Below, one piece after another: positions 22,978 through 42,600 of a stretch of DNA of 64,000 bases. The notes below the pieces were generated by a model. The model did not search any database, was not told the origin of the DNA, and saw nothing but the letters and a program-made list of their open reading frames with translations. Every line of letters begins with the position of its first letter. Positions within the stretch are counted from its first letter, which is position 1. Both the position numbers and the translations under genes were made by a program. Origin of the DNA: Sphingobacteriia bacterium (lineage in GTDB: Bacteria; Bacteroidota; Bacteroidia; Bacteroidales; UBA7960); the NCBI GenBank assembly GCA_011390575.1, contig JAABSE010000003.1, forward strand, positions 37,922 to 101,921, read 5' to 3'.

Positions 22978-25900
22978 TTGATGCGACATACATCCAACCA
23001 CAATACATCTGAAATCAACGCAAATTCTCAGCACTCAGATAGCGATCTTTCAGAATTTTCTATAAGCACCCAACAGAAAAATTTATGCGATCAGATCTGT
23101 ATGAGCCTGACCAATACCGATTCTACAGATCAGGTTTACTATCTGTCGCCGGAAGGATATCTCGTTTTGCGAAGCAGAAAAAGCAACCGGTTTTACCAAC
23201 ATCCCGGCAATCTTCACCTGCTGGATTTATTACATTACGAAAACAAGGAACAATCATGGAATGCATTTATCAAGGCTGCATCAGAAGGTAAAATATCCCA
23301 AACCACCCACAGGCTTGCCACGAAGAAAACCGATTACCGCTGGTACGATGTCTTATTCACTCCCGTAGTTATTGACGGCAAAGTTTTAAGAATCATAGCG
23401 TTTGTCACCGATATTCATGACGAGAAGATAAAAAACGATGAAAACCGATATATGGCCGAACTGTTAAACCTTGTTGGCCAGGCAATTATCGTAACAGATT
23501 TGCAGGGTAAAATAGCGTTTGCCAATCAAACCTCCCGTACCCTATACGGTTGGTCACCCGAAGAAATGGCCGGAAAAGATTATTCAATTCTGTTTCCGGA
23601 AAATCATTCTATCAATACACAGGAAATATCTGATGCACTTAACCGTGCCAGGAGCTGGCAGGGAGAGCTGTTTTTAAAGCATCGCACCGGAAAGATCGTT
23701 CCTGTGTTATCAAGCAGTTCACCTTTGCATGATTCAGAAGGAGAAGTTAATGGTATTGTGAGTATTTCCGGCGATATAAGCCATACAAAGCGAATAGAAA
23801 ATGCACTGAGCTTAAGCGAGAAAAAATACAGGAGAATGTTTTTGCTCAGCCCGCAACCCATGATGATATACGACAGGGATACATTCCGATTTCTGGAAGT
23901 AAATGAGGCTGCACTGGAGAAATACGGATACACCAAAGAAGAATTTCTTGAGATGAGACTTAAGGATATTTGTTTGGAGGGGGAACATCCATGCTCAGAA
24001 GCAAAATCGGTTAAAGATTCTAACTCCAGGGTGTTCTCATCCTATCGTCACATCAAAAAAAATGGTGAATTGATGCACGTAGAGATAATTTCACAAAATA
24101 TCATTCACCAGGGTCGCAGTGCAAATCACATACTCATCAACGACATAACAGAGCAGAAAGAGGCAGCCCAGGCCATTGCAGAATGGAAACAAAGATATGA
24201 AAAGGTAACGGCAGCTTCCGGTCAGGTAGCTTATGAATATAACATAACCCAAAATCAGCTTATCTGGGGAGGAAGTGTTCGCTCGGTGCTCGGCTATTCA
24301 GACCAGGAACTCAATGGCAATACATCTGTATGGAGATCGCTGATACATCCTGAGGATTTGCCTATGGCATTAAAACTACAGAAAGAGGCTCTGAAAAATA
24401 AATCCCGTAAAATTGCCCAGTACAGGATAAAACACAAAGACGGTCATTTCATTTTCCTGCAGGAAACCGGGATACTGATGGAACACGCCAGAGAGGAAGA
24501 TCAGATAATGATTGGGATGATACAGGATGTAACAGAAAGTAAAAAATCTGCCGAAGCCCTGCGCGAAAGCATGGCCCGTTTCAATGCAACCTTTAACAGC
24601 GCTTTCCAGTTTATAGGATTATTAGACACTACCGGCAACATCCACGAAGCCAACAATACATTTAAAAAATTCCTTAACAAATCCACTGAAGAAGTCATTG
24701 GAAAATACATTTGCCAGGTATTGGGTGACAATGAAAGGCCTCAACTGACAAAAATCATCCGTAAGGCCGTGAGGGCAGCTGCCCGTGGGGAGTTTACCAG
24801 GCATGAACTAAATTTAAAACACTTTTCTGATAAGAATACCTTTATCGATTTCTCTTTAAGCCCCATAAAACATGATGATGGAACTATCGGGATGCTGGTA
24901 TTTGAAGGAAGGGACATTACCCAGCTTCGTGAAAAAGAGGAAATGGCCCGGATCATGGAAAGGGCTTTTAACAAATCTACCAATGGGGTTGCCATTGCAG
25001 ATGCACGACTTCCGGATTTGCCTCTGATTATGGTCAATGAAGCATTCGAAAAAATTACAGGATACAAATCAGCGGAAATTTTGGGACAGAACGCCAGGTT
25101 CATGCATGGGGGCAAATCTGACCAACCCAATCTGGAAATCGTCCGAAATGCCGTGCGAAAAGGAATTGAATGCAGAACCGAAGTGATCAATTACACCAAA
25201 ACCGGGAAAAAATACTGGAATGAACTGTATCTTGCCCCCGTAAAAGATGACATGGGCAAAGTAACCCATTTTTTGGGCATCCATAACGACATTACCCAAA
25301 GGAAAAAGGCGCAGGAGGAACTGGAAAGCTACCGTGCAAGCCTGGAAGAAATGGTAAAAGACCGCACAGAAGAGCTGAAAGGAGCTTATGAAAAGGCGGA
25401 AGCAGCGAATAAGGCCAAGAGTACATTCCTGGCCAACATGAGCCATGAAATACGCACCCCCCTCAATGCTATAATCGGATTTTCAGAAATTCTCATGACT
25501 TCGGTGGAGGATAAAAAGCAAAACTCGCAATTAAGGTCCATCCGCAACAGCGGTCGCAACCTGCTCAATATCATCAACGAAATACTTGATCTTTCCAAAA
25601 TTGAAGCAGGCAAAATGGCCATAAAGAAAGAGCCTGTAAACCTGAAAACCATTATCGCCGATTTGGAAAACATCTATTCAGAAAAGGCCGGAGAAAAAAA
25701 CATTGTATTCTTTACCGAAAAACAGAAAAACATCCCCCCTTCACTCCTGCTTGACCCCGTAAGATTACAACAGGTGCTGGTCAACCTTGTGAGTAACGCC
25801 ATAAAATTCACCCATAAAGGTCACATTATTTTATCTATCGACACAAAGAACAGGAAAAAAGATACGCTGGATCTTGTATTCAGGGTGGAAGATAGCGGCA

Positions 25901-26868
25901 TCGGAATTCCTGATAAAGACCTTGCCTGCATATTTCAACCTTTTTTCCAACCGGAGACCCAGCAGGAGAGTATTTATGGTGGAACGGGACTGGGGCTTCC
26001 CATCAGCAAAAGCATTACCGAAGCCATGGGAGGAATCTTGTCTGTAACCAGCAAGCAAGGCGAAGGTACCATATTTGAAGTTTGCATCAAGAATGTGGCC
26101 ATATCACAGGATGAATTATGGATAGAAGAAGACACAAAAGCTTTTCATTCCTCTGTTTCTTTTGGACCGGCCAGTGTGCTTATTGCCGATGATAACAAGG
26201 AAAACCGACAACTGCTCATCGACCTGATAAATAATCCTTCCATCAGCATTCACCAGGCCGGCAGTGGTAAAGAAGCCGTAAAACTGGCAACAGAAATATT
26301 ACCGGATTTGATATTGATGGATCTGCGCATGCCGGAAATCAACGGTTATGAAGCCACCAAAATCATCAGAAACAACATCACCAGGAAAGACATAAAAATC
26401 ATTGGAATCTCTGCTTCTGTCAAGGTGCTGCCGCAGTATGAATCTCCCCTGGATATATTTGACGATTTTATCCCCAAGCCTCTTAACATACCTGAGTTCA
26501 TTGAACTTCTGAAAAAGTATCTTCCTTTTTCAGTGAGTGAAAACCAGGAAAACAAAGAAGTATTACTGGAAGAAAATCCGGAGTATTCCGATTATGACCG
26601 GAAAAAACTTGCAAAATTAGCTACCATATTGTCAAAAAAATATGTTACTTTACAGAAAGAAATTATCCGAAAGAATTTAATGGATGAGATTCAGGATTTT
26701 GGTTGTCAACTTTTGCAGGAGAGTAAAATATATCAATTTGACCCTTTGAGCAAATATGCCAATACCATTATTTCGCTGGCCGATCAGTTTGAGATTGAAA
26801 AACTTCGAAATACGCTGAGTCTTTTCCCGGATATTGTAAAAAAACTGAACATATACCTGGAGAACTGA
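22978..26868 (+). CDS. Multi-PAS hybrid histidine kinase (several PAS incl. LOV-like, HisKA, HATPase_c, REC)
   Basis: Repeated PAS modules, NMSHEIRTPLNAIIGFSEILM H-box, GGTGLGLPISK, REC VLIADDNKENRQLL...LILMDLRMPEINGYEA. Confidence 0.96.
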   Translation: MMRHTSNHNTSEINANSQHSDSDLSEFSISTQQKNLCDQICMSLTNTDSTDQVYYLSPEGYLVLRSRKSNRFYQHPGNLHLLDLLHYENKEQSWNAFIKAASEGKISQTTHRLATKKTDYRWYDVLFTPVVIDGKVLRIIAFVTDIHDEKIKNDENRYMAELLNLVGQAIIVTDLQGKIAFANQTSRTLYGWSPEEMAGKDYSILFPENHSINTQEISDALNRARSWQGELFLKHRTGKIVPVLSSSSPLHDSEGEVNGIVSISGDISHTKRIENALSLSEKKYRRMFLLSPQPMMIYDRDTFRFLEVNEAALEKYGYTKEEFLEMRLKDICLEGEHPCSEAKSVKDSNSRVFSSYRHIKKNGELMHVEIISQNIIHQGRSANHILINDITEQKEAAQAIAEWKQRYEKVTAASGQVAYEYNITQNQLIWGGSVRSVLGYSDQELNGNTSVWRSLIHPEDLPMALKLQKEALKNKSRKIAQYRIKHKDGHFIFLQETGILMEHAREEDQIMIGMIQDVTESKKSAEALRESMARFNATFNSAFQFIGLLDTTGNIHEANNTFKKFLNKSTEEVIGKYICQVLGDNERPQLTKIIRKAVRAAARGEFTRHELNLKHFSDKNTFIDFSLSPIKHDDGTIGMLVFEGRDITQLREKEEMARIMERAFNKSTNGVAIADARLPDLPLIMVNEAFEKITGYKSAEILGQNARFMHGGKSDQPNLEIVRNAVRKGIECRTEVINYTKTGKKYWNELYLAPVKDDMGKVTHFLGIHNDITQRKKAQEELESYRASLEEMVKDRTEELKGAYEKAEAANKAKSTFLANMSHEIRTPLNAIIGFSEILMTSVEDKKQNSQLRSIRNSGRNLLNIINEILDLSKIEAGKMAIKKEPVNLKTIIADLENIYSEKAGEKNIVFFTEKQKNIPPSLLLDPVRLQQVLVNLVSNAIKFTHKGHIILSIDTKNRKKDTLDLVFRVEDSGIGIPDKDLACIFQPFFQPETQQESIYGGTGLGLPISKSITEAMGGILSVTSKQGEGTIFEVCIKNVAISQDELWIEEDTKAFHSSVSFGPASVLIADDNKENRQLLIDLINNPSISIHQAGSGKEAVKLATEILPDLILMDLRMPEINGYEATKIIRNNITRKDIKIIGISASVKVLPQYESPLDIFDDFIPKPLNIPEFIELLKKYLPFSVSENQENKEVLLEENPEYSDYDRKKLAKLATILSKKYVTLQKEIIRKNLMDEIQDFGCQLLQESKIYQFDPLSKYANTIISLADQFEIEKLRNTLSLFPDIVKKLNIYLEN

Positions 26869-26872
26869 CCCC

Positions 26873-28012
26873 ATGCCTGATAAGACTGAACCATTCAAAA
26901 TATTGGCAGTTGATGATAACCCCACAAATATTAAGGTAATAGGTAGCATTTTGCGTGATGCGGGATACCGGATTGGGTTTGCCATGAACGGACGTGAAGC
27001 CCTGGAAATATTAATGGAAAACGCAGATTATGATCTGGTACTCATGGATATCAACATGCCGGAGATTGATGGTTTTGAAGCATTGGAGCTCCTGCAGCAA
27101 TGTGATGAATGCAGGCTAATCCCGGTAATAATGCTTACTGCTTTCAACAACGTGGAAAATATAGTGCGGTGTTTTGACCTGGGTGCTGTGGATTATATAA
27201 CCAAACCATTTCATTCAAAGGAATTGCTGAGCAGAGTCAATACACAGCTGCAATTAAAACACAAAACCGACCAGTTGCAACAATATGCTAGAGAGCTTGA
27301 AGCGACCAACGCTACCAAGGATAAGTTTTTCTCTATAATATCTCATGATCTGCGCAATCCTATTGGCTCACTGCAGATAATCAGCAAAATGCTCAGAGCC
27401 AGCATTGAGAAAGATGACAAAACACAAATCAATGAACTGCTGGAGGTGCTGGAAACAACCATCGGAATGGGTTCTAAACTTCTCGAAAATCTGCTGCAAT
27501 GGGCACGTTCTCAAACAGGCAGGTTAAATGTCAGACTTATGGAATTGCAGCTTGCAGCCCTGGCAGAGGAAGTACTGGAACTAATCGAAGCGCAGGCAAT
27601 GGGGAAAAATATCAGTTTTTCTAATTTAGTACCTGAAGAACAGGTTGTTTATGCCGACAGAGACCTGTTGAAAACCATATTAAGAAACCTGCTGAGCAAC
27701 GCTGTAAAATACTGCAACCCCAACGAAGGCAAGATAATCATCACAACCGAAAAAGATCAGGAAAACGTCCGTATCAATGTTAGTGACAACGGCATTGGAA
27801 TGGACTTGCCAACCCAGTCAAAATTATTCCAAATTGAGGGTAACATCACTTCCATGCCTGGAACACAGGGTGAAGAGGGAACAGGTCTGGGACTCATACT
27901 TTGCAAGGAGTTTGCGGAAAAAATGGGAGGAACCGTTTCTGTTTTAAGCAAACCGGGAAAAGGAAGCACATTTACGCTCAGCCTGCCCGAAACAGATGAA
28001 GCATCCCGGTAA
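26873..28012 (+). CDS. REC-HisKA-HATPase hybrid response regulator/histidine kinase
   Basis: ILAVDDNPTNIKVIGS...LVLMDINMPEIDGFEAL; SIISHDLRNPIGSL; GTGLGLILCKEF. Starts 4 bp after the upstream kinase stop. Confidence 0.95.
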   Translation: MPDKTEPFKILAVDDNPTNIKVIGSILRDAGYRIGFAMNGREALEILMENADYDLVLMDINMPEIDGFEALELLQQCDECRLIPVIMLTAFNNVENIVRCFDLGAVDYITKPFHSKELLSRVNTQLQLKHKTDQLQQYARELEATNATKDKFFSIISHDLRNPIGSLQIISKMLRASIEKDDKTQINELLEVLETTIGMGSKLLENLLQWARSQTGRLNVRLMELQLAALAEEVLELIEAQAMGKNISFSNLVPEEQVVYADRDLLKTILRNLLSNAVKYCNPNEGKIIITTEKDQENVRINVSDNGIGMDLPTQSKLFQIEGNITSMPGTQGEEGTGLGLILCKEFAEKMGGTVSVLSKPGKGSTFTLSLPETDEASR

Positions 28013-28093: not shown

Positions 28094-29122
28094 TCAGATA
28101 TAACCGTTTTCCCTGAACCAATTCATTGCTTTTTTAATGGTTTTTTCGGTATTCGCCGGCTGCAGATTTAATTCTTTAACCGCTTTGGTATTGTCGAAGT
28201 AGTTATCGAGGCAAAGCAGGCGTTGTTGCGTGCTGTTAAAGGGCATGGATTTTCCTGCAATCTTTTCAATGAGGTCAAAGAAAAATGCTGTACTTCTGAG
28301 CAGCAACTCAGGCAACGGGATAATGAATTTTCTTTTTCCTGCAATCTGCGAAAGGATTTTAAAAAACTGCCTGTAGGTCATATTCTCTCCTGTAAGCAAC
28401 CAAACATCTCCCTTTTTTCCAGCTGTAAGAGCACTCACCACTGCCTGTGCCGCCAGTTCTGCATCTACAAAGCTCTTTCCGCCGGGCGGGCAAAAAACAA
28501 TCCGGTTCTTCAATACATACAGCATCAACTGCCCGCTGGAGGGCTTGGCATCGCGGGGCCCGATAAGAAAGCCGGGAGCTACCACAACGGCAGGAAAATC
28601 ATACTTTTTCACGTAACCCAATACTTCCTGCTGAGCAAGGTATTTGCTGTAAGCATACCCCGATTTTTTGAGCCAGGGCATGAATCCACTATCTTCTGTG
28701 CCGGGATTTTCGAGCGTTCCATTGGTGAAACTATTGGGAGTACTTACAAATACAAATCGCCTGATTCCCTTTGCTCTTGCAACCTGAAGCAACAAACGCG
28801 TACTTTTGATATTGGCAGCTTCATAGTGCTTCAGTTCTGACGGATACTGCGCCGTACGACCAGCACAATGAATGACATATTCTGCACCCTCCAGGGCTTG
28901 TTCCAAATCAGGCTTTCGTGTAATCTCTCCTTCGAAAAGCTCATAATCCAATCCTTCCAGCGATCGCAACAATGCTCCTTTTCGAACCATCGCCCGGGCC
29001 CGGTAGCGGCCATCCTGCCCGATAGCACAAATAACACTGGCCCCAAAAAGGCCATTAGCGCCGGTAACCAACACTATGGACTTTTTTTGCATATTTGCGT
29101 CAGGGTCCTGCATTTTCTTCAT
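28094..29122 (-). CDS. NAD-dependent epimerase/dehydratase (3-beta-HSD/dihydroflavonol reductase-like; likely start 29092)
   Basis: IVLVTGANGLFGASVICA Rossmann motif, YAYSKYLAQQEVLGY catalytic YxxxK. Confidence 0.9.
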   Translation of the reverse strand: MKKMQDPDANMQKKSIVLVTGANGLFGASVICAIGQDGRYRARAMVRKGALLRSLEGLDYELFEGEITRKPDLEQALEGAEYVIHCAGRTAQYPSELKHYEAANIKSTRLLLQVARAKGIRRFVFVSTPNSFTNGTLENPGTEDSGFMPWLKKSGYAYSKYLAQQEVLGYVKKYDFPAVVVAPGFLIGPRDAKPSSGQLMLYVLKNRIVFCPPGGKSFVDAELAAQAVVSALTAGKKGDVWLLTGENMTYRQFFKILSQIAGKRKFIIPLPELLLRSTAFFFDLIEKIAGKSMPFNSTQQRLLCLDNYFDNTKAVKELNLQPANTEKTIKKAMNWFRENGYI

Positions 29123-29957
29123 CCACTACATCCTTTCCAATGGTTTCTCTGGCAGCAAAAAAAGTTTTGCCATCTGCCATCTTCATATCTTTACGCAAAT
29201 AAGCCAATATCCAGCCATCCGGAACAATTCGGGTAATCAACCAAACCAACTTATTCATCAACCCGGGTATGATCATGGGATGCTGTTTCAGCAATCGCCT
29301 GATGCAGATTTCAGCCGTATGTTCGACCGATAAAATGGTGGCTTTTGTAATACCGTCGGCTTTCCGGATTCTTTGGCTAACCTCCGGATTGGTAACCATA
29401 CCCCCCGGATGAACCACACCTACAAACACATTGCTTCCTTTTAATTCGGCATACAACCCCCTGGAAAAAGAATAGATAAAAGATTTGGAGGCTGGATACA
29501 CACTCTTGTAAGGCATGGGCAAAAAGGCAGCAAGGCTGGATATATTCAGCACGTATGCCTGTTTTTGTTTTTGCAAAAGGGGTAAAAGCGCATGAGTCAG
29601 CAATACCACACTACGGATATTCAACGAAAGGATTTGGTCTGTTTGGTCCACCGTAAGTTCATCGAAAGCTTTGGTACAGCCCATGCCCGCATTGTTAATA
29701 AGAATCTGCAGAGAAAAATTCTGTTTTACCCAAAACACCAGTCGTTCCAGTTCTTTTTTTTGGGTCAGGTCACATTCATAATACCGGGCATCTATATTTG
29801 TTTCGGCTTGAATCTCGCGGGCTTTTTGCTCCAGATTCTCTCCCGGCAATGATACCATAATCAAATGATAACCGCGTCTGGCAAGTGATTGTGCCAACAT
29901 ATATCCTAAACCCTTACTAGCCCCGGTTATCAGTGCATAATTGGGATGGCTGTTCAT
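29100..29957 (-). CDS. SDR family NAD(P)-dependent oxidoreductase
   Basis: ALITGASKGLGYMLA, LINNAGMG, YPASKSFIYSFSRGL. Confidence 0.94.
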   Translation of the reverse strand: MNSHPNYALITGASKGLGYMLAQSLARRGYHLIMVSLPGENLEQKAREIQAETNIDARYYECDLTQKKELERLVFWVKQNFSLQILINNAGMGCTKAFDELTVDQTDQILSLNIRSVVLLTHALLPLLQKQKQAYVLNISSLAAFLPMPYKSVYPASKSFIYSFSRGLYAELKGSNVFVGVVHPGGMVTNPEVSQRIRKADGITKATILSVEHTAEICIRRLLKQHPMIIPGLMNKLVWLITRIVPDGWILAYLRKDMKMADGKTFFAARETIGKDVVDEENAGP

Positions 29958-30029: not shown

Positions 30030-32285
30030 TTAACGCTGACTAAGGCTTTCCAGCAATTTCAAAGCATCTTCCTGATTTTTGATTACGAATCGTGCGGCTG
30101 TTTTCAACATACCTACTTTAAGGGTCCATGCATGCTCAGGCAAAGCATAAAAAAGCATCTCATCAGACCATCCTGCACCCATTGCCATCACAAAATCATA
30201 CTTTTTGCGCGACACCCAGTGCATCGCCAGCTCCCCTTTGTTGATTCCCGAGTTGCTGACTTCAATCACCTTCTTACCCGGCATTACCTGTACCCCAATG
30301 TTGGTAGTCATAGAAAGAAGGTGGTCGCTTACTTCCCTGGAGAGAACAGAAGATTGCTCAATATCGGCTTTGTGGTAGTGCCAGGAAATGGAGTAATCTC
30401 TTTCCACAATGAATGAGCCGGGCAGTCGGTCGGTATACAGTTCCAAAACAGGCAACACTTCTTCTTTCCAGCTGTTGGACAGAGGCTTAAAAAGTTTCCA
30501 GTTGCGGGCCGAGGATTCACGAATCCAGGTACCATGCTCGGCAGTGAGATTCACCGGAGTATCTCCCAGCCAGGCATCCAGATCGTCGCGACCACGACCA
30601 CTGATAATAACAATATCTGTGTCGTCTGTTTTGTTGAGATTTTCAAGAAGTTTTAACAATGCTTTGCCGGGTTTTGCTTTGTCGGGATTGCTGGTGGCAG
30701 GCACCAGGGTACCGTCATAATTTACAATAACAATACGGTTTTTCGATGTTTTATAGTTGTCCAGCAGTTCATTGGTGCGCTCCTCGTTCAGACGCTTAGT
30801 CTGTGAAGTAAAACTGGAGGCCCTGCTGATATCCAGCAAACTATCCACATAGTCATTGGCCCAGCGGGTTACATTGTACCTTTTGAGCCTCTTCTGCATC
30901 AGCTTATTGCGCCTAATCTGCTCCTCTTCGGGAATACTGAGTGCTTCTGCGATACCATCTGCAATCTCTTCAATATTGTTAGGATTAATAATGATGGTTT
31001 CACTCAATTCTTTGGCAGCACCCGTAAACTCACTCAATATCAAGACTCCCTTCTGGTCGGTGAGGGACGCAATATACTCCTTGGCGACAAGGTTCATCCC
31101 GTCGCGCAGGGGCGTAATGAGAGAGACGGCACTCATCCTGTACTGAGCAATGAGCTCTTTGTGGGGCAATGAGGTGTATTGGTAAATAATGGGAGTCCAG
31201 TTTACTTTTCCGTAATCACCATTGATTTTCCCCACCAGTTCATCCAGTCTTCTTTTTATTTTCTGGTAAGAAGTTACGCCCGTCCTTGACGGGACAACTA
31301 TCATATTCAGAAATACTTTTCCATGCCACTCGGGATGTTTTTTCAGAAACAACTCAAACCCCTCCAGGCGGTTGACAATCCCTTTGGAGTAATCGAGCCG
31401 GTCAACAGAAAGGACGATTTTGGGCTCATCGGGACCGGGTTTTTCGGAAGGGAATGGAGAAACATCCATCTGATTGAATTTGTTGTACTCAATACCCATG
31501 GGAAAGGAACCTACTTTCACCATCCGGTCGGGCAGGTCAATGGTTCCCATATGGTTCTCCTTTCCAAGTATACGCAGCACCGAACGAAGGAAATACTGAG
31601 CATAATCATAGGTATGAAAGCCGATAAGATCTGAACCCAATAACCCTTCCAGGATAGCATTGCGGCTTTCTTTGGGAAACATGCGGTACATCTCAAAAGA
31701 AGGGAACGGGATATGCAGGAAGAACCCAATGGGGTTTTTTACTTTTTCGCGCAACATGCCTGGCAACAAAAACAGGTGATAATCGTGCACCCAGATGATA
31801 TCGTTGGGCTGGAGTACTTTCAGGATCTCGTCACAGAAGATCCGGTTCACCTTCTGGTATTCAGACCAAAATTCATTGTCAAAACTGGCATAATTGGGAA
31901 AATAATGAAACAGCGGCCAGATGGTTTTATTGCAAAAACCAAGGTAGACTTTATCCATGAGCTTTTGAGAGAGGAAAACCGGTGAAGCATTGTAATCTTT
32001 TTGTACGGTATCTCTAACATAATCCTCATCCTCTTTCTCAATGGTCATCCCGGGCCAGCCCATCCAGATATATTCATCAACTTCTTCTTCTGATTTTCCT
32101 AATCCTTCCAGAAAATCAGAAAGTCCGGACACCAGGCCTCCGGCACTCTTCTCAAAAACAAATTTCCCACCCTCTTTTTTCAGGGATACGGGTAAACGAT
32201 TGGATACTATCAGCAGTCTCATCTTTTTCCTCGGTTTATAGTTTAAATACTTTTTTATCGTTGGTTTCAAAATGGTGGGTTTCAC
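30030..32285 (-). CDS. otsA: Trehalose-6-phosphate synthase (GT20/OtsA) fused to a degenerate trehalose-phosphatase domain (likely start 32222, MRLLIVSNRLPVS)
   Basis: RLLIVSNRLPVS, SAGGLVSGL, WVHDYHLFLLPGMLR, DRLDYSKGIVNRLEGF, DGMNLVAKEY for OtsA. C-terminal HAD/TPP-like domain with altered motifs NYDGTLVP and GAGWSDEM. Confidence 0.95.
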   Translation of the reverse strand: MKPTILKPTIKKYLNYKPRKKMRLLIVSNRLPVSLKKEGGKFVFEKSAGGLVSGLSDFLEGLGKSEEEVDEYIWMGWPGMTIEKEDEDYVRDTVQKDYNASPVFLSQKLMDKVYLGFCNKTIWPLFHYFPNYASFDNEFWSEYQKVNRIFCDEILKVLQPNDIIWVHDYHLFLLPGMLREKVKNPIGFFLHIPFPSFEMYRMFPKESRNAILEGLLGSDLIGFHTYDYAQYFLRSVLRILGKENHMGTIDLPDRMVKVGSFPMGIEYNKFNQMDVSPFPSEKPGPDEPKIVLSVDRLDYSKGIVNRLEGFELFLKKHPEWHGKVFLNMIVVPSRTGVTSYQKIKRRLDELVGKINGDYGKVNWTPIIYQYTSLPHKELIAQYRMSAVSLITPLRDGMNLVAKEYIASLTDQKGVLILSEFTGAAKELSETIIINPNNIEEIADGIAEALSIPEEEQIRRNKLMQKRLKRYNVTRWANDYVDSLLDISRASSFTSQTKRLNEERTNELLDNYKTSKNRIVIVNYDGTLVPATSNPDKAKPGKALLKLLENLNKTDDTDIVIISGRGRDDLDAWLGDTPVNLTAEHGTWIRESSARNWKLFKPLSNSWKEEVLPVLELYTDRLPGSFIVERDYSISWHYHKADIEQSSVLSREVSDHLLSMTTNIGVQVMPGKKVIEVSNSGINKGELAMHWVSRKKYDFVMAMGAGWSDEMLFYALPEHAWTLKVGMLKTAARFVIKNQEDALKLLESLSQR

Positions 32286-34659
32286 CTTTCACCCCAATGG
32301 TAACAGGGTTTGCCCAACCTTTGTCAAAGGTAATGGTCAGTTTCTCATGATTAATTTCCAGCTTCATCCAGTGCCCCCGGTATCGCAGGTGAAAATTCAT
32401 TTGCTCAATATCGTCAGGCAATCTGGGATTGAACCATAACACATCATCTCTTATTTCCAGGCCTGTATAGCATCTTTGAATGATATCAAGGGTGCCTGCC
32501 ATCGCCCCCAGGTGAATACCTTCATGGGTTGTGCCTCCCTGAACATCTTTAAAGTCGCTCATGAGCGCTTTCCTGAATCGTTTCCAGGATTCGTCGCGTC
32601 GCGAACGGGCATAAACCCATGCATGAATAACCTGGCTGAGGGTGGAGCCATGTGCCGTGCGCTTGCGATAATATTCGATATTGTCAGGAATATCGTTTGC
32701 CTCAAAAGCATATCCCAGCCTTGTAAAAATTGCCTGTAGTTCTTCACTGGAAAACAGGTAAAACAGCATCAATACATCAGCTTGTTTGCTGGCTTTATAA
32801 TCATTGCATGATTTGCCTTCTGCTTCAAGGATGCGGTCAAGGCGTAAAGAATGCCCGTGTTTCTCATGATAATACTCCCAGTCAAGCTCCTTCAGTTTTT
32901 CATATCCCTCGAATTGCATGATGATATTATCCTTGAACGGGACATACATTTTAGTTGCTATATCTTCCCATCTTTCCAAATCCTTCCGGGTGTACCCAAT
33001 TGTTTTTTCCAGGTTTTCGCAGCAATTATCATCCAGCAACTGCAACAATTCAAGTGCATGCTTTATAACCCACACCACCATAACATTGGTATAGGCGTTA
33101 TTGTTGAGACCCGGTTCATCTTCTGCAGCATCAGGATAATGGGTGTGATACTCATCAGGCCCCATTACTTTGCGGATTTCATACCGTTGGGTACTTTCAT
33201 TGTATTCTGCTTTGCTTGACCAGAACAGGGCTGTGGAAAGAATGATTTCTGCGCCATGAGAAAGCAGAAAGTCCATATCGCCGGTACTCTGGTAGTAATG
33301 CCAAACGTTGAAAGCCACCGCAACATTGATATGATACTGAAGGTGCGAAACATCGGGTAGCCAGCGACCTGATTTGGGGTTGAGATGAATTTTCTGGGTT
33401 TCCTCCCTGCCGTTGCTTCCGCTTTGCCATGGAAACATTGCACCCCTGTAACCGGCTTCTGCAGATGCCTGCCGGGCTTCGGGCAAACGACGGTAACGAT
33501 ACATGAGCAGAGAGCGCGATAACTGGGGATGATGCAAATCAATAAAAGGCTGAATGTAAAGCTCGTCCCAGAAAATATGACCCCGGTAAGCTTCGCCATG
33601 CCAGCCCCGGGCGGGAATGCCAATATCAACATCAATACTGTTATTGGAAACCGTCTGATACAAATGCATGATGTGCAAGCGGGTCACCAGCTGATCTGTT
33701 TTCTCAGGGGTTACAAGCTCAATGTCGTTATACTGCCAGATTTGCTCCCATACGGTACGGTGCTTTTCTTCCAGAACCGCAAATCTTCCCACCCGATCAA
33801 TTAGGGTTTTGGCTTCCGTTAAGGGATCAGCAATGGCCATATCGCGGGAAGTGAAAAAGGCAGTGATTTTTTCCACGGTAATACTTTTCCCTTTTTCACA
33901 AGAAACGGTATAATCTCCTGCCACCAGGTTATCTTCTTCAAACCTGGATTGGGATAATTCAAGGCTCTCTTCTTTTTCATCAAAGAAGTGGGTGCGGGCA
34001 GCCTGAGCCACCAGCACATTGGATTGCTTGCTGTGGCTTAGTAAAAACACGCTGTTATCGTTAAAATGACCGGCTGTCAGCACCTCAATGTGATCCTGGT
34101 TCAAATCGCTGTACCTTTCCACATTGTTGTTGATAATATGGCCATCAATACCTGAACGTATGTGCAATTTCCCGGACCAGTTTTCCGGTGTTATTTTCCA
34201 CTGGATGGCTGCAGCATGTTTATTATCCATGCTTACCAGCCGCCGGCTGACAATGGAGGTTTCCCTGCCCTGCTTGTCCCTGAAAGTCATCCGGCGCTCC
34301 AGAATGGCTTCCTGCATTTTCAGGTAAGTTTCAAAGTTCAATACCTCCACGCTGTCCATATCAAACCAGTCTCCATCTTCAATCTTATAAGTGAGATACA
34401 GCCAGTTTGGCCAGTTAACCAGGTCTTCATTTTCAATCATCTTATCCTGCACCTTCGATTCCATACGGTTGTAACCGCCGGCAAGGTAGGTGCCCGGATA
34501 ATTCCAGTCTTTCCCTGTGCCATTTCCCTTGAATTTATTTCGTTCCATTTCAAGGGCAGCACGGGTGGCAAAATATCCATTGCCCAGGGTGCACAAGGCT
34601 TCCTGCAATGGATGTTCTTTGGAATCAAATTCTTTATAGTGTACAGTCCAGCTCGACAT
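32236..34659 (-). CDS. Glycoside hydrolase family 65 (trehalose/maltose phosphorylase-type)
   Basis: GNGYFATRAA, PARGWHGEAYRGHIFWDELYIQPF, RKVMGPDEYH (general acid Glu), NNNAYTNVM, KQADVLMLFYLF. Confidence 0.94.
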   Translation of the reverse strand: MSSWTVHYKEFDSKEHPLQEALCTLGNGYFATRAALEMERNKFKGNGTGKDWNYPGTYLAGGYNRMESKVQDKMIENEDLVNWPNWLYLTYKIEDGDWFDMDSVEVLNFETYLKMQEAILERRMTFRDKQGRETSIVSRRLVSMDNKHAAAIQWKITPENWSGKLHIRSGIDGHIINNNVERYSDLNQDHIEVLTAGHFNDNSVFLLSHSKQSNVLVAQAARTHFFDEKEESLELSQSRFEEDNLVAGDYTVSCEKGKSITVEKITAFFTSRDMAIADPLTEAKTLIDRVGRFAVLEEKHRTVWEQIWQYNDIELVTPEKTDQLVTRLHIMHLYQTVSNNSIDVDIGIPARGWHGEAYRGHIFWDELYIQPFIDLHHPQLSRSLLMYRYRRLPEARQASAEAGYRGAMFPWQSGSNGREETQKIHLNPKSGRWLPDVSHLQYHINVAVAFNVWHYYQSTGDMDFLLSHGAEIILSTALFWSSKAEYNESTQRYEIRKVMGPDEYHTHYPDAAEDEPGLNNNAYTNVMVVWVIKHALELLQLLDDNCCENLEKTIGYTRKDLERWEDIATKMYVPFKDNIIMQFEGYEKLKELDWEYYHEKHGHSLRLDRILEAEGKSCNDYKASKQADVLMLFYLFSSEELQAIFTRLGYAFEANDIPDNIEYYRKRTAHGSTLSQVIHAWVYARSRRDESWKRFRKALMSDFKDVQGGTTHEGIHLGAMAGTLDIIQRCYTGLEIRDDVLWFNPRLPDDIEQMNFHLRYRGHWMKLEINHEKLTITFDKGWANPVTIGVKGETHHFETNDKKVFKL

Positions 34660-34690: not shown

Positions 34691-36259
34691 TTATTTTTTC
34701 TCATACAACTTCAGCAACCTGTTAAAGAACTCCCGCACCTGGTAAACATTTTTCAGGGCATATTGCGCATGGGTTTTCTGACCATGCCCCCCTACCAGAA
34801 TTCCGATGCCTTTATCCTTTAATACCTCAAACCCGTCCTCATCGGTAATATCGTCGCCAATAAACATGGGGATAATATCATCCCTTCCGGTCAATTCAAG
34901 CGCATCCATGATCCAGTTTACCGCTTTGCCCTTGTGCCAGTCTATGTCCGGTTTGATTTCCACGATCTTCTTTCCTTCCCCTTTTTTGTGGCCCGGGTAT
35001 TTTTTCAGGATGTCATCCACTATTTTAAGCACTACCTCCTCATCTTCAGGCCGGGCATTGCGGTAATGAATGCCGATGGCATAACGTTTCCGATCCAACT
35101 GGGTTCCTTCTGTCTTTTCTTTGAGCAACTCCTTCAGTTCTTCTTCAATTTTATCGAGTCGGGGAATGATTTTCTCTGAATCGGGGTGCTCCATGTGCAG
35201 TCCGTCAGGCCCGGTAATGATATACCCATGGCTACCGGCATATACCAGTTCATCAAGCCCCACCAGGTTTTCCACATCTTCCTTATCGCGACCAGTTACC
35301 ACGGCTACGGTAAAGGTTTGAGCCAGTTTCCGCAGGGTCTGCTTCATCTCTTCAGAAATCACTGCATCTTCAGGCTTGGGAACAATGGGGCTGAGGGTGC
35401 CATCATAATCCAGGAAAATGGCTGGTTTTTTTTGTGAAAGAAGGGTAAATATTTCGCTGTTATCAGGAAAAATTGGTTTACCCTGCCGGGAGAAATATTC
35501 TTCCATGATTTCTTCATTATGCAAATCCATCTCATCAAAATTGTCGATGGTGATATCGGCACCGTTCTCCAGCAATGCCTCTTTGTTGTTAAAACGGTTC
35601 ACTCCTACCACCAGGCCAAAGTAGCCTCTTTGTCCGGCCTTAACGCCAGAGGTGGCATCTTCAAATACCACGGAGTTTTCGGCGCGTGCATCAAGGCGGC
35701 GGGCTGCTTCGGTAAAGATATCAGGATCAGGTTTGCCGTTGAGACCTATTTCTTCTGAAACCAGGCCATCAACCCGCGAGTCGAACAAATCATCGATACC
35801 TGCTACTTCAATGATTTTTTTGCAGTTTTTGCTGGAGGATACAATAGCTGTTTTAATGCCTTTATTCCGCCACTCTCTGAGCTTCTGCAAAGCATCCTCA
35901 TAAATCTCTACCCCTTCTTTCTCCAGAATCTCATTAAAAACACCATTTTTTATATTTCCCAGTGCACATACGGTGTCGAAGCCCGGTTCATCGGAAGGTG
36001 TTCCGAAAGGGAGTTCAATTTTGCGCGACTGCAGGAAACTCTGTACCCCCTGGTATCGGGGCTTCCCGTCAATGTACACCTGGTAATCCTCCTCGGTCAT
36101 GGAACTTTGATCCTGGTGTTGCTTTTCAAAAAAACGATCAAACATTGCTTTCCATGCTTTCTTGTGTGTTTTGCGGGTCTGGGTAATTACCCCGTCAAGG
36201 TCAAAAATCAATGCATCAATATGCTTATAGTCACCGTCACTCCCGGATGAATTCTTCAT
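34691..36259 (-). CDS. Fusion protein: beta-phosphoglucomutase-like HAD domain + trehalose-6-phosphate phosphatase domain
   Basis: N-terminal LIFDLDGVITQTRKTHKKAWKAMF...YIDGKPRYQGVQSFLQSRKIELPFG; C-terminal AIFLDYDGTLSPIVPKPEDAVI, VTGRDKEDVENLV, FIGDDITDEDGFEVL. Confidence 0.94.
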   Translation of the reverse strand: MKNSSGSDGDYKHIDALIFDLDGVITQTRKTHKKAWKAMFDRFFEKQHQDQSSMTEEDYQVYIDGKPRYQGVQSFLQSRKIELPFGTPSDEPGFDTVCALGNIKNGVFNEILEKEGVEIYEDALQKLREWRNKGIKTAIVSSSKNCKKIIEVAGIDDLFDSRVDGLVSEEIGLNGKPDPDIFTEAARRLDARAENSVVFEDATSGVKAGQRGYFGLVVGVNRFNNKEALLENGADITIDNFDEMDLHNEEIMEEYFSRQGKPIFPDNSEIFTLLSQKKPAIFLDYDGTLSPIVPKPEDAVISEEMKQTLRKLAQTFTVAVVTGRDKEDVENLVGLDELVYAGSHGYIITGPDGLHMEHPDSEKIIPRLDKIEEELKELLKEKTEGTQLDRKRYAIGIHYRNARPEDEEVVLKIVDDILKKYPGHKKGEGKKIVEIKPDIDWHKGKAVNWIMDALELTGRDDIIPMFIGDDITDEDGFEVLKDKGIGILVGGHGQKTHAQYALKNVYQVREFFNRLLKLYEKK

Positions 36260-36481
36260 AGCTTTTTTAAAATATGAATGAATGGTTTTGCCAAAAAAAC
36301 ATCTTATTCAGACAGAAGTATTTGCTGTCTTTATCATAAGAATCACGAATATACGAAATTTTGGGAAGGCTGCCAAACAGGATTTACCCCGGATTTATAC
36401 CAAAAAAGAGGGTTGATTATCAATTCTGATGGACTTTTGGTAATTCTTGCGACCCCTTTAAACGATGCCTGCCAGGTAATC

Positions 36482-36518
36482 AAAAAAACGGGAGCCGATG
36501 TAAAACCCGGCCCCCGTT
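36482..36518 (-). terminator. Intrinsic terminator downstream of the T9SS cargo gene 36588..39509
   Basis: acgggagccg...cggcccccgt near-perfect stem; on the minus strand followed by TTTTTTT. Confidence 0.8.
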
Positions 36519-36587: not shown

Positions 36588-39509
36588 CTATCTGCTGATA
36601 ACAATCCTTGTATGGTGAACTTCACCTTCTGTACTGGTTAATCTCAGCAGGTAAAAACCCTGTGAAACAGCAGAAACATTCAGAGTAATGTTTTGTCCGG
36701 TTACTTTGGCTTGATAAACCACCTGGCCGGTCATATCCATTATGCTCACCTGTTGCAGATGAATATCACCATTTAACTGCAACAGGTCATTGGCAGGATT
36801 GGGAAATATGCTGAGGCGGTTTTCCCACACATCATGAACGGAAACTTCATCTTCCACGAAATGGGCAACCAAAGTAAGGTCAGAAGTAAGCGTTATCTCA
36901 TTTTGTTCCAAATCCGATATAGCATTGCCCTCTTCATCGGTCCAGTTAACGAAGACAAAACCGGCATTGGGTTCTGCGTTTACCGTTACATCGGTACCGT
37001 TCTCATAATCACCGGCTCCTGTAACAGTACCTGCCTCTTCGGGAAAAACCAGAAGTGTAAGGGTATGCATAGGCGCCGTTACTTCCAGGATTACGGGCAC
37101 AATTACCAAAGAATTTCCCTCATCGTTACTGGAAATTCTGATATTTGCTGTATAAGTACCAGCCTCAAGTTCTGCACTATTAAAGGATAACACAATTTCG
37201 TCTGATTGTTCTTCTTCTAAAACTCCAGATGAAGGACTGATACTTAGCCAGTTTAATCCATTAAAAGAGAGATTAGCACGGATATTCCAATTGCTGTTCC
37301 ACCCATAATCGATAAGGCGTCCCCATTGCAAAGCGTCAAGACTTATCCAGCCACCATTTAAGTTGACAGGTCCTCCATCATGACCAAGTATGAACGAACC
37401 AGCATTATGGGTTGTTTCAAAGCCAATCCAAATATCCGATCCGCTAATCGTAACCGGGTTTTCCAGACTTACAGTGTTCCAGCTATCTTGGGTAGGTGTA
37501 AAGCTTTGTTCGTACAATAAGCTCCCTGCTGATGTTGTTGTTCCTGCATCCCAAACCATTAGCTTAATGGCAGTGGGTACATTTTTTATGTAAACATCCA
37601 CTGATTCGAGTTGATAATTTTCAAATACCGAAGTCATGCCGGAAGGAAAACGTGTTGCGCCATAAAAGGTACCTCCTTCTTCTAAACCTATGGCATTAAC
37701 ATTATCACCATCATAGTTAAGTGTATTGTTCTTTATTGATTTTGGTCCTGAATTACTTTCATTACCAATGGCTTGCATCAAATCAACAGGTAACTCTTCT
37801 GATTTAAACGATTTTCCCTCAGGCACTTGTTGTACCTTAGAATCATCTGCGGTGTACAGAACCAATGTATTGTAATCCAGGGTTCCGGCACCCACGTTCT
37901 TAATTTCAATGGTTCTGTTTGATTCCTCGTTCGTGTTTAAGGTCTCAGAAATTTCCAATGGATCAACTTCAATGATAGGATCGCCCAGATTGTAGTCATT
38001 GGGGTTCTTTGTAATGACGAGGGTGTAATAGAACACTCCATACATATCTGCAATGAATTGAAAGGCTCCGGTGTTTAAATCATAGGTACCAAATGCACTA
38101 AAAGTTAAACCACTTGCAATGGTATACAACAGGCCTGTTTCTGCGTCATAGGAGACATCCTGGGGATAAACTATGTCTATACCAATTGGCCCTACTACGT
38201 TGAACTCTGCAGTGACCGGGTCAATCTTAAGCAATTCGTTTTGTATGGTAACAGCATACAAATAACCATTATTGGCAAAATCCATTCCTACAATCAGTTG
38301 GGTACTAATACCGATCTCAGTGAGGGCATAAGTTTCCATATCCAGAGTACACAAATGCGAGTAATCGGTATCTATATTTTGAACCACCACATACATAATT
38401 CCTGTATCCCAGTTGTAAGCCAGAGCCGCAGTATAACCGGGCACACCGGTCATATAACCCAAATGGTGATACGAGCCATCCGGGTTGACTGTACCTATAG
38501 AGGCATCAGCGTTAACCCTGTATATATAATTTCCATCATATTCCTCTGCTAACTGCCATTGGGTATAATCAGTTGATCCCACACTAACCATTTCGCCTGT
38601 TGACAGATCTACTTCATCGTAAGAATGAGTTATGCCATTTATAGCATATGCATCAGCCAAAAGGCCTACTGCTCCACTTACAATAAACATATCATTTGAC
38701 TCATCTTCTCCACCCCCTTCGGTAATTGTAGCCTGCGCCACATATTCCATGCTTTCTACAGGTGTAAATGATGGCAAAACGACATTTACGGTTTCATTGG
38801 GACCAATGGGTTCTGTAATGGTCATTTCTTCGTAATATCCAAAACCAGAAACTTCCAAACTTACTTTATAAAAGGTCGTCTCCTCAATCCCGACATTCCT
38901 TACTGAAACAACAGGAACAAAATCGGTTCCCAACACCACGAATGTTGGCTTGAAATTAACAATAGCTAAATCAAAATCAAGGGCTTGAGGAAGATCAATT
39001 GTTCCAGAATTAAAATTTGGTGGAGCCCCATAACCATCTCCGGCGATGTACCAATCCACTGTCAATGGGCCTGAAAAATCTTCACTAATGCTTACATTAA
39101 CCGAAAACTCACCACTGGATTTAAGTCCTCCTAATCCGGAACCCCCTTCAATATTCCCCCATGTTACAAGGGCTCCATCGCCAGTTTCTCCATTGTAAGG
39201 AAGCTGCTGATAACCTGTAGTTGTACACACAGAAGCGGAATTCACAAATACTCCTTCAGGAAAATCTAAAGACACTCCATCATCCCATTCGCCATCGGGG
39301 GTGGAATAGTTGTAGTAAAACAGTAAATCAATTGTTGTTCCGGGGTTGTAAAATTCTGTTATATATGAGATTGAACCATCCACTTCCTTGCCATTCGAAT
39401 TGGTTTCTGCCTTTAATATCATCTGTTGTGCGAATCTATTTTCTGCATTCGCTAAACCATTTATCATCAAAGCAATCACTGCAATGATAGCTATTCCATT
39501 TACTTTCAT
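36588..39509 (-). CDS. T9SS type A sorting domain protein with propeller-like N-terminus and InlB B-repeat-like module
   Basis: C-terminal LSIFPNPANDLLQLNGD...GFYLLRLTSTEGEVHHTRIVISR; HTLTLLVFPEEAGTVTGAGDYENGTDVTVNAEPNAGFVFVNWTDEEG InlB_B repeat. Confidence 0.9.
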   Translation of the reverse strand: MKVNGIAIIAVIALMINGLANAENRFAQQMILKAETNSNGKEVDGSISYITEFYNPGTTIDLLFYYNYSTPDGEWDDGVSLDFPEGVFVNSASVCTTTGYQQLPYNGETGDGALVTWGNIEGGSGLGGLKSSGEFSVNVSISEDFSGPLTVDWYIAGDGYGAPPNFNSGTIDLPQALDFDLAIVNFKPTFVVLGTDFVPVVSVRNVGIEETTFYKVSLEVSGFGYYEEMTITEPIGPNETVNVVLPSFTPVESMEYVAQATITEGGGEDESNDMFIVSGAVGLLADAYAINGITHSYDEVDLSTGEMVSVGSTDYTQWQLAEEYDGNYIYRVNADASIGTVNPDGSYHHLGYMTGVPGYTAALAYNWDTGIMYVVVQNIDTDYSHLCTLDMETYALTEIGISTQLIVGMDFANNGYLYAVTIQNELLKIDPVTAEFNVVGPIGIDIVYPQDVSYDAETGLLYTIASGLTFSAFGTYDLNTGAFQFIADMYGVFYYTLVITKNPNDYNLGDPIIEVDPLEISETLNTNEESNRTIEIKNVGAGTLDYNTLVLYTADDSKVQQVPEGKSFKSEELPVDLMQAIGNESNSGPKSIKNNTLNYDGDNVNAIGLEEGGTFYGATRFPSGMTSVFENYQLESVDVYIKNVPTAIKLMVWDAGTTTSAGSLLYEQSFTPTQDSWNTVSLENPVTISGSDIWIGFETTHNAGSFILGHDGGPVNLNGGWISLDALQWGRLIDYGWNSNWNIRANLSFNGLNWLSISPSSGVLEEEQSDEIVLSFNSAELEAGTYTANIRISSNDEGNSLVIVPVILEVTAPMHTLTLLVFPEEAGTVTGAGDYENGTDVTVNAEPNAGFVFVNWTDEEGNAISDLEQNEITLTSDLTLVAHFVEDEVSVHDVWENRLSIFPNPANDLLQLNGDIHLQQVSIMDMTGQVVYQAKVTGQNITLNVSAVSQGFYLLRLTSTEGEVHHTRIVISR

Positions 39510-39568
39510 TATTCAGAGTTTGAGATCTTTTATTAAGAATTTTGGTATCTGTCAAAAAGCTTTTAATG

Positions 39569-39603
39569 AAAAAGGAGGCTGCCATGTATTGGCAGCCCTC
39601 CCC
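39569..39603 (-). terminator. Intrinsic terminator downstream of the T9SS cargo gene 39625..43683
   Basis: ggaggctgcc-atgtatt-ggcagccctcc stem with one bulge; T-run on the minus strand. Confidence 0.75.
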
Positions 39604-39624
39604 AAAAAAACTCATTATATTTAT

Positions 39625-42600
39625 CTATCTGGTTATCAGTATGCGTGTGGTATGGATATCTCCTGCCATATTGGTTAGTTTTACCAGGTAAAACCCTTGC
39701 AGCAAAGTTGATACGTCAAGTTTGTAGTTATTTACATTTACTTCGGCACCGTATACCTCTTGACCGGTAAGGTTATATAATTCAATATTCCTGATATTAT
39801 CATCGCTCATGAAGTTGATGAAATCAGATGCAGGATTAGGATAAATAGTTAATTGACTTTCCCAAACATCATGAACACTGCTAATTAAAAGAAATTTAGC
39901 AATCAATGTTATATCACCGGAAATGGTGATCTCATTCTCTGCCACTTCTGAAACAATATTTTCATCGGCATCTTGCCAGTTTACGAATTCGTAACCTTGG
40001 TTGGCAATGGCGTTTACTGTTACAACCGTTCCTGAATGATAAGAGCCTGATCCGGTAACTGTACCTGCCTCCTCGGGGTTAACCAGCAGCGTAAGGGTAT
40101 GCATAGGAGAACCGGTAACTTCCAGGGTAACGGGTACAACAACCAGTTCTTCATTAATGGCATTGCTGCTGATCCTGATGTTTGCAGTGTATGCGCCGGG
40201 TTGAAGCCCTAAAGCATCAAAGTTAATGGTAACAGCCTGGCTTTGATCATCTGCAATAGTGCCTGAAGCAGGATCGATGTTGAGCCATTGTACTCCGCTA
40301 TATTGCAATCTGGCGCGAATATTCCAGTTTCCATTCAGTCCATAATCTGATAGGTGCTCCCAGTCAATTGCATCTATACTTAGCAGGTTGCCATTCATAT
40401 TGGCCGGACCATTATCAAGACCTAAAACAAAAACACCAGCATCATGGGTTATCTCAAAACCAACCCAAAGATCTGCTCCGCTTACAGCCAGGGCCTCATC
40501 AAGTACGACTGTATTCCAGCTTGAGGCGTCAGGGGTAAACACCTGTTCATGTAGCAGGGCTCCAGGAGTTGTTGATGTTCCTGCATCCCAGATCATAAGC
40601 TTTACTTCAGTTGGTATGTCGTTGATATAAACATCAACCGATTCAAGTAAATAACCACCAAAAGGAGCTACCATTTGCGAAGGATATCTTGCTGCACCAT
40701 AAAAAGTTCCGCCGGCATTAAGTCCAATTGCATCTATATTGGCACCATCATAATTCAAAATTATGTCATTTTTATCATTCAATTTGGTGGCAGGATGGAA
40801 ACCATTGATATTTTCTTTCTTTCCAAGCTCAATTGAACGACTAAACGATGAAGTTCCTTCAGGAACCTCCTGAACTTTTGCATCTTCTATAACATACTGA
40901 ACAACTGCACTGTAGACAAGGTCTCCTTCACCAGAATTGGATATTTCAAGGGTTTGCTCAGAAGAAACATCGATTTCAAGTGATTCAGATATGCTAGTGG
41001 GGTTAATCTCAATTTCCGGCTGAGCAGGTGCAAAGTCCACCAAAAAACTTATCCACTCTCCGCCAGGCAGTTCGGCTGCACCCACAAACTTGTTACCATC
41101 GGGAGTAACATCGTTTACGCTGAAGAAAGTCCAGTCTGATGCATCAAACCATCCTCTGCCTGCAACGAACTCATTGAATGTTTCCATTGTTCCATTGGGA
41201 TGTCTTACAAATGCACGGCGAGTATCTGGAGTTGGAGGAAAGCCTTCAGCAGTATAGCCAAATACAGTTCCATCTTCTAAAACAGCCGTTGGGCTCAAAG
41301 TCCCTGCATTAAGTGTATTTTCAAATTGGACTACACCCTCAGTTGGCGACCAGATGAAACCATAGGCTCCAAAATAACCTGCAACGTAGTTTCCATTGGC
41401 AGAAGCTGCGGTAGATTCACCAAAATTTGATTGCGTTTCGTCCATGAATATCATTTCTTCATTATGCCAAATTACAGGCGACCAAGTCCAATTTGGTGCT
41501 GCCCATCCGTAAATGACACTGCCGTCTGCACTGACCCCATTTGCTCTTGAATCGTATCCGTCGGGACCAATCATCTCATAACCATTTTCCTCTGTCCATT
41601 TAAATGCTTTTGCACTCCAGTCTTCAGTGTATTGCAAGCCCACAATAGTAAATCCATCGGCTGAAATGCCCCAGGCTGAATTATAAGATGTTCCAGTAAT
41701 TTCAGGAACTTCAGGATTCATACCCAGAAAAGCCCATTCTTGTGTTGTCCTATCCCATATTCCGGCAGTCTGCACTTCTAAACCGTCAAATTCAAACTCA
41801 GTATCATAGGTTCCAGCCACTAAACCATTGTCTGTAACGCCACTAACATCGCCGGTAATTTCAAAGGTACCCTCAAATTGTGTCCACAGGTAACCCGCCT
41901 GTCCGCCAAACTGGCTTCCCGACACATACATTCCATCAGTAGAGATTCTGGTTGGAACAGTGTACTCGGGATAAATTTCTGTAAGACTGATGGGTTGAGC
42001 CTCCATTACATTGAGGGTTACATCTACTGCAGCGCTTGGATTCTCTGTATCATTACTGGTAATGATAACATTTGCCTGGTATATTCCTATATCAAGCCCT
42101 GCTGCATCGAATGCCAATGATATGGTTTGGCTTGATTTTGCCGGGATACTACCTGATAGAGGGTCAGCGGTTAACCAACCATCTCCATCCGTAAATTCAA
42201 CTTCAATATTGAAGGTGAGATTTTGGATTCCATCATTCATAATCGTAAAACTTTTTGAACCAGCTCCCTCCTGTCCGACGGTCTGATTTATCTCAGTTGT
42301 TTCCACTATCATGAAGGGAGCATCATCAATTTCTTCACCTAAGGAGATATCATCAATGGCCCAAAAATGAGCGAACTCTCCTTCATATCTGAATGCTATG
42401 TAAATATCCTGCCCAGCATACTCTTCAAGATTAATAAAGCGCTGTGTCCAATTGTCTGAAACATTTTCCTCAGTCCACACTTCTACAAAATCTTCATCAG
42501 CGGGGTTACCGCTTCCGGTAGAAACCCATACACTATTTTTGTCATAATAGGCAGCATCACCAACCTGGCTCCAAAATGATAAATAGAAAAATCCTTCAAG

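Follow-up and report, generated by a model that had tools for sequence, protein, structure and literature searches.

The window, the whole 64,000-nucleotide stretch of DNA analysed here, carries on its minus strand a gene (30030..32222) encoding a 730-aa protein in which a trehalose-6-phosphate (T6P) synthase (TPS) is fused to a degenerate T6P phosphatase (TPP) half. The gene begins at the ATG at 32222 and its stop ends at 30030; we favour this start over the GTG at 32285 because a protein begun there would overlap the neighbouring GH65 gene. Against NF011071, the model of a family in which TPS is followed by TPP in one chain, the protein scores 923 bits (cut-off, 634), and Pfam assigns it 482 bits for Glyco_transf_20 and 124 bits for Trehalose_PPase. 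Its AF2 model has a mean pLDDT of 89 over the whole protein, and the Foldseek list for the fusion is filled with synthase structures and carries nothing on the TPP half. All ten listed active-site residues (R9, W102, D147, H170, R275, K280, R313, D374, N377 and E382) are present in the synthase half (GT20; 30828..32222, minus strand), in agreement with the first-pass annotation of this DNA, according to which the OtsA half keeps its catalytic signatures.

The TPP half (residues 489-730; 30033..30758, minus strand) corresponds to the Pfam match of 124 bits (PF02358), and AF2 predicts a full HAD-type fold for it with high confidence. The interval first proposed for this half, 30090-30760, stopped slightly short of its end at 30033. 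Motif I (30708..30722, minus strand), IVIVNYDGTLVP, reads NYDGT and has Asn in place of the nucleophile Asp (N501, codon AAT at 30722-30720 on the minus strand), and motif IV (30159..30179, minus strand) reads GAGWSDE (GAGWSDEM in an extended reading) where canonical enzymes have GDDxTDE, with the first two Asp gone and the last, D687, kept. Both departures, the second described as GAGWSDEM for GDDxTDED, had been noticed at first reading and are borne out here. The acid/base Asp of motif I (D503), Ser541 of motif II (30600..30602, minus strand) and Lys662 of motif III (30237..30239, minus strand) are retained. HAD phosphatase chemistry combines an Asp nucleophile with bound Mg2+; in the T6PP of Brugia, the Mg2+ ligands are the two Asp of motif I and two Asp of motif IV, and replacing either motif I Asp abolishes all activity (PMC4081830). 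Judging by its residues, the TPP half is presumably catalytically dead. We regard it as very improbable that a weak or different phosphatase activity persists by way of another residue: D503, K662 and D687 are invariant among relatives and the pocket is conserved, but a HAD enzyme needs its Asp nucleophile and Mg2+, and here the nucleophile and two metal-site Asp are absent.

Searches at the order, family, phylum and class level, together with fetched regions, yielded 143 distinct near-full-length fusions. When these were aligned, a comparison with bacterial TPS-TPP fusions that had been suggested at first reading, 35 of them, the window protein included, shared NYDGT and G[AS]GW[STA]DE, at 60-100% identity to the window protein; 103 of the remaining 108 are canonical, with identity to the window protein of about 50% or less. 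In all 35 clade members the catalytic losses are confined to the nucleophile and the first two motif IV Asp, while D503, the motif II Ser, the motif III Lys, E654 and D687 are invariant. The Asn is encoded by AAT in 19 members and by AAC in 16. A sequencing or assembly error at one codon, such that correction would restore GAT at 30722-30720, had been named as a way in which the observation might fail, and the window genome, at 198 contigs, is indeed a draft. But the 35 sequences, taken from separate assemblies, agree with one another, use both Asn codons and carry a matching motif IV change; they rule such an error out, and we give it a negligible chance. Clade members belong to one order, in which they represent three families (coded f1, f38 and f48). 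The phylum is probably Bacteroidota, to judge from the fusion family, the Por secretion tails encoded nearby and PMC3634074. In a maximum-likelihood tree inferred from only the synthase half, the thinned set (29 of the 35) forms a single clade with an SH-aLRT of 100. On this tree the TPP loss goes back to the common ancestor of the clade and its three families.

A domain that has lost its active site could simply be decaying and be retained only through its fusion to the synthase. Within the clade, amino-acid distance in the TPP half is 1.33 times that in the TPS half, versus 1.26 times for canonical pairs at comparable synthase distance, and such near-equal ratios indicate that constraint on the dead half is almost as strong as on an active one. 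We used protein distances for this comparison because codon rates rest on the only four clade pairs with usable dS and have weak support (median dN/dS, 0.067 for the TPP half and 0.032 for the TPS half). In an invariance test on HAD-motif columns, which replaced an earlier pocket test whose columns had been chosen after inspection of the data, 11 of 13 such columns were invariant in the clade, compared with 39 of 229 other domain columns (p = 6e-7), and 14 positions are invariant in the clade yet variable among canonical fusions. Between clade and canonical proteins, distances in the TPP half are modestly raised (+0.05, at the top of the canonical range), which fits a burst of change on the clade stem followed by renewed constraint. 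That increase would also suit a neutral remnant, as would the larger difference between the halves in G901 vs G1043, a recent loss (0.33 vs 0.15). But the clade domains are constrained almost as tightly as active ones, 14 positions have become newly invariant, and no truncated copies were seen among the near-full-length fusions; a neutral remnant is improbable, and a decaying pseudogene is disfavoured by the constraint within the clade.

The pattern of change around the active site bears on what the half might do. Four positions on the sugar side of the cap depart from the canonical enzymes: 606, Glu in those enzymes, is mixed in the clade; 608 changes from Lys to mostly Arg; 617 from Arg to (mostly) His; and 656 from Lys or Arg to (mostly) Ser. 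Positions 606, 608 and 617 align with residues that we take to be T6P contacts in fungal Tps2 structures. The pocket has been kept in altered form, as something other than a simple trap for substrate or a random wreck; the cap changes could also be read as slow decay. The first-pass annotation had proposed that the half is a T6P-sensing or scaffolding domain that controls the synthase. As a sensor it would bind T6P in the manner of engineered Asp-to-Asn phosphatases and feed back on the synthase, and the invariance of the motif II Ser, the motif III Lys, D503 and E654 would suit such a role. So would PDB 5DX9, in which the phosphatase domain of a fungal Tps2, alignable with the window domain, also reads NYDGT, presumably as an engineered trap for T6P. 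Against this, two motif IV Asp needed for Mg2+ are gone and positions 606, 608, 617 and 656 are non-canonical, changes by which affinity for T6P may be low; with the cap changed, T6P binding cannot be assumed. We hold T6P sensing to be possible but rather unlikely, and it is no less likely that the half plays a structural or allosteric part in the synthase.

The genes upstream of the fusion supply a candidate for the missing activity. A GH65 glycoside phosphorylase/hydrolase gene (32236..34659, minus strand) ends 13 bp upstream of the fusion; the solved chains nearest to its product are 9LB6 ("Trehalose-6-phosphate hydrolase") and then kojibiose phosphorylase (3WIQ). Two genes upstream of the fusion, and first in the order bPGM-TPP, GH65, TPS-pseudoTPP, lies a gene for a beta-phosphoglucomutase-like (bPGM-like) HAD fused to a TPP domain (34691..36259, minus strand; AF2 pLDDT 91), in which both HAD sites are intact and the TPP motifs are complete (DYDGT, GDDITDED), all of them invariant across 31 sequences. 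This protein, which joins a bPGM of the breakdown arm and a TPP of the synthesis arm in one chain, had been overlooked at first reading, and to judge from its motifs it is likely the acting T6P phosphatase. The three-gene order is unchanged in the f1 and f48 relatives examined. In f38, GH65 adjoins the fusion in two genomes, on short contigs, and a second, canonical TPS-TPP fusion lies elsewhere in four of five genomes; in these four (G038, L173; G1003, L178; G1064, L175; G150, L182) the canonical gene has a bPGM-GH65 fusion gene nearby on the other strand, and a TPS-pseudoTPP is present besides. Before the operon there are a promoter-like site (36348..36376, minus strand; 10/12) and a terminator-like hairpin (36487..36518, minus strand; 12 pairs and a T tail), features whose numbers in the region are near chance.

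Other genes flank the operon. Downstream lie two SDR genes (28094-29957) that did not adjoin the operon in any relative checked. Further on, at 22978-28012, a 1296-aa protein, read from its translation as PAS-like repeats with a histidine kinase and a receiver, is followed directly by a 379-aa receiver-kinase protein. Upstream of the operon, 36588-43683 encodes a pair of large secreted proteins that bear Por secretion tails, BACON_2 and InlB-like repeats.

Taken together, these data make it probable, in our judgement, that the dead TPP half is retained in a structural or allosteric role within the synthase and that T6P is dephosphorylated in trans by the bPGM-TPP protein; we infer both the division of labour and the role of the dead half. 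A second TPP with intact motifs in the operon would explain how the cell can do without the activity lost from the fusion. The TPS-TPP fusion would first have shared a cell, and later an operon, with the bPGM-TPP/GH65 cassette, whose enzyme would have taken on T6P dephosphorylation; the old TPP active site would have been lost on the clade stem, and the dead domain would have been retained because the synthase needs it. The dead half probably stabilises the active form or assembly of the synthase, and an anionic ligand may bind, without Mg2+, in the less acidic pocket of this half. A trehalose cycle would then be encoded in the operon in both its arms, with TPS and TPP for synthesis and, for breakdown, bPGM and a GH65 enzyme that acts on trehalose or on T6P. 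A scan with the Pfam TPP model found a second TPP domain in 29 of 30 clade genomes. Some observations count against the explanation: no second TPP was found in the remaining genome (G930, 90% complete), and in the four f38 genomes the second TPP is, or includes, the canonical TPS-TPP and not a bPGM-TPP.

Damaged TPP sites also occur in fusions outside the clade. Of 392 genomes of the class, only four have a strong bPGM-TPP match (the window genome, G664, G702 and G516), and in every one of them the TPP site of a TPS-TPP fusion is damaged. In G664 the fusion (L194) reads NHDNS, DKK and GND (GNDRND), and in G702 (L200) it reads GYDGT and SKA; both have the bPGM-TPP/GH65 cassette elsewhere in the genome. 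In G516, where bPGM, TPP and GH65 are three separate adjacent genes about 36 kb from the fusions, there are two fusion paralogues (L212/L241 and L072), one canonical and one with DYDGA, SKS and GDN. By hand count, two of 65 genomes without the cassette have a damaged fusion (G901 and G763); the divergent fusion of G763 (L204) keeps DYDGT and has motif IV GDAKTDE. The association of cassette with damage gives a Fisher p of 1.7e-5, or 5.6e-4 if any separate TPP is counted as a cassette, both values ignoring relatedness, whereas independent pairs on the tree agree in three cases of three (sign test, 0.25), significance being out of reach with so few. An association across four lineages is therefore suggestive, not proven.

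A single loss shared by all damaged fusions was rejected, since five or more changes are required on the tree and an AU test rejects a grouping of G664 and G702 with the window clade (p = 1e-6); G664 and G702 may share one common loss. G901 (L128/L192) and its relative G1155 (L244), from another family, combine NYDGT with GNDWTDE, which reads as a second, independent Asp-to-Asn loss. A Pfam TPP model scan of the one-contig G901 genome found no other TPP domain, and G160, G910 and G979 have a separate TPP alongside a canonical fusion. Thus, the loss can occur without the cassette, and having a second TPP does not compel it. The proposal made at first reading, that a bacterial fusion lost its phosphatase independently, stands for the motifs, which were probably lost independently of the eukaryotes and, among the sampled bacteria, several times over. 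A further possibility, a bacterial parallel to the trehalose synthase complexes of eukaryotes, is that the dead half docks the bPGM-TPP protein, senses a sugar phosphate (T6P or another) and switches flux between trehalose synthesis and GH65/bPGM breakdown, an arrangement that would have arisen several times, whenever the cassette joined a TPS-TPP genome; we think this unlikely.

The finding is real and conserved, and the function of the dead half is what we infer. We found no paper on a bacterial TPP pseudophosphatase in the open-access literature, although subscription papers may exist. Inactive TPP halves are already known from the trehalose enzymes of plants and fungi, and a bacterial clade with the same arrangement and a probably independent origin offers tractable proteins with which to probe how a dead TPP half serves its synthase, a set to which the other lineages with a broken site beside a second phosphatase add. 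The clade also flags an annotation error, in that the family model gives these proteins high scores as "bifunctional".

In domain order and length the window fusion matches the bifunctional TPS-TPP proteins of NF011071 / PRK14501, and its descent from that family is clear, but it fails the family's functional definition at DxDx(T/V) and motif IV, where it has NYDGT and GAGWSDE. Plant class I TPS enzymes (e.g., Arabidopsis TPS1) combine an active synthase with an inactive TPP-like half and rely on separate phosphatases. Like the window fusion, they keep the TPP fold and intact synthase residues and have lost the nucleophile; unlike it, they have single-domain TPPs as phosphatases, where the window has a bPGM-TPP in the same operon, and the window fusion is without the plant-type N-terminal extension. 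The two cassette genes together resemble a split version of OtsB1 of Mycobacterium tuberculosis, which, as we understand its make-up, has bPGM, TPP and GH65 parts in one chain. OtsB1 (Rv2006) is a 1327-aa TPP homologue without T6P phosphatase activity, OtsB2 being the enzyme that acts (PMC11046441), whereas the cassette TPP has complete motifs and its gene is separate from that for GH65.

Among bifunctional fusions, the TPSP of Cytophaga hutchinsonii complements both yeast tps1 and tps2 mutants (PMC3634074), whereas the window fusion is without the TPP catalytic motifs. The Thermoproteus tenax TPSP, like the window protein, is a prokaryotic fusion encoded in an operon, and its isolated synthase half is inactive, activation relying on the fused TPP domain (PMC3634074); it is thus an earlier example of a synthase dependent on its fused TPP half. 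It differs in that its TPP half has conserved motifs and is highly active, and in that its partner is a glycosyltransferase and not a bPGM-TPP. Losses of TPP motifs in eukaryotic fusions have been described (PMC1769515, PMC3634074). The fungal proteins Tsl1 and Tps3 resemble the window fusion in carrying a dead TPP half on a synthase-like half, and the Tps3 domain (5HUS) aligns with it; the window pseudo-TPP is probably of independent origin, and the synthase-half tree covered bacterial sequences. In Tsl1 and Tps3 the synthase half is inactive as well (PMC1769515, PMC3634074), whereas in the window fusion the synthase residues are intact.
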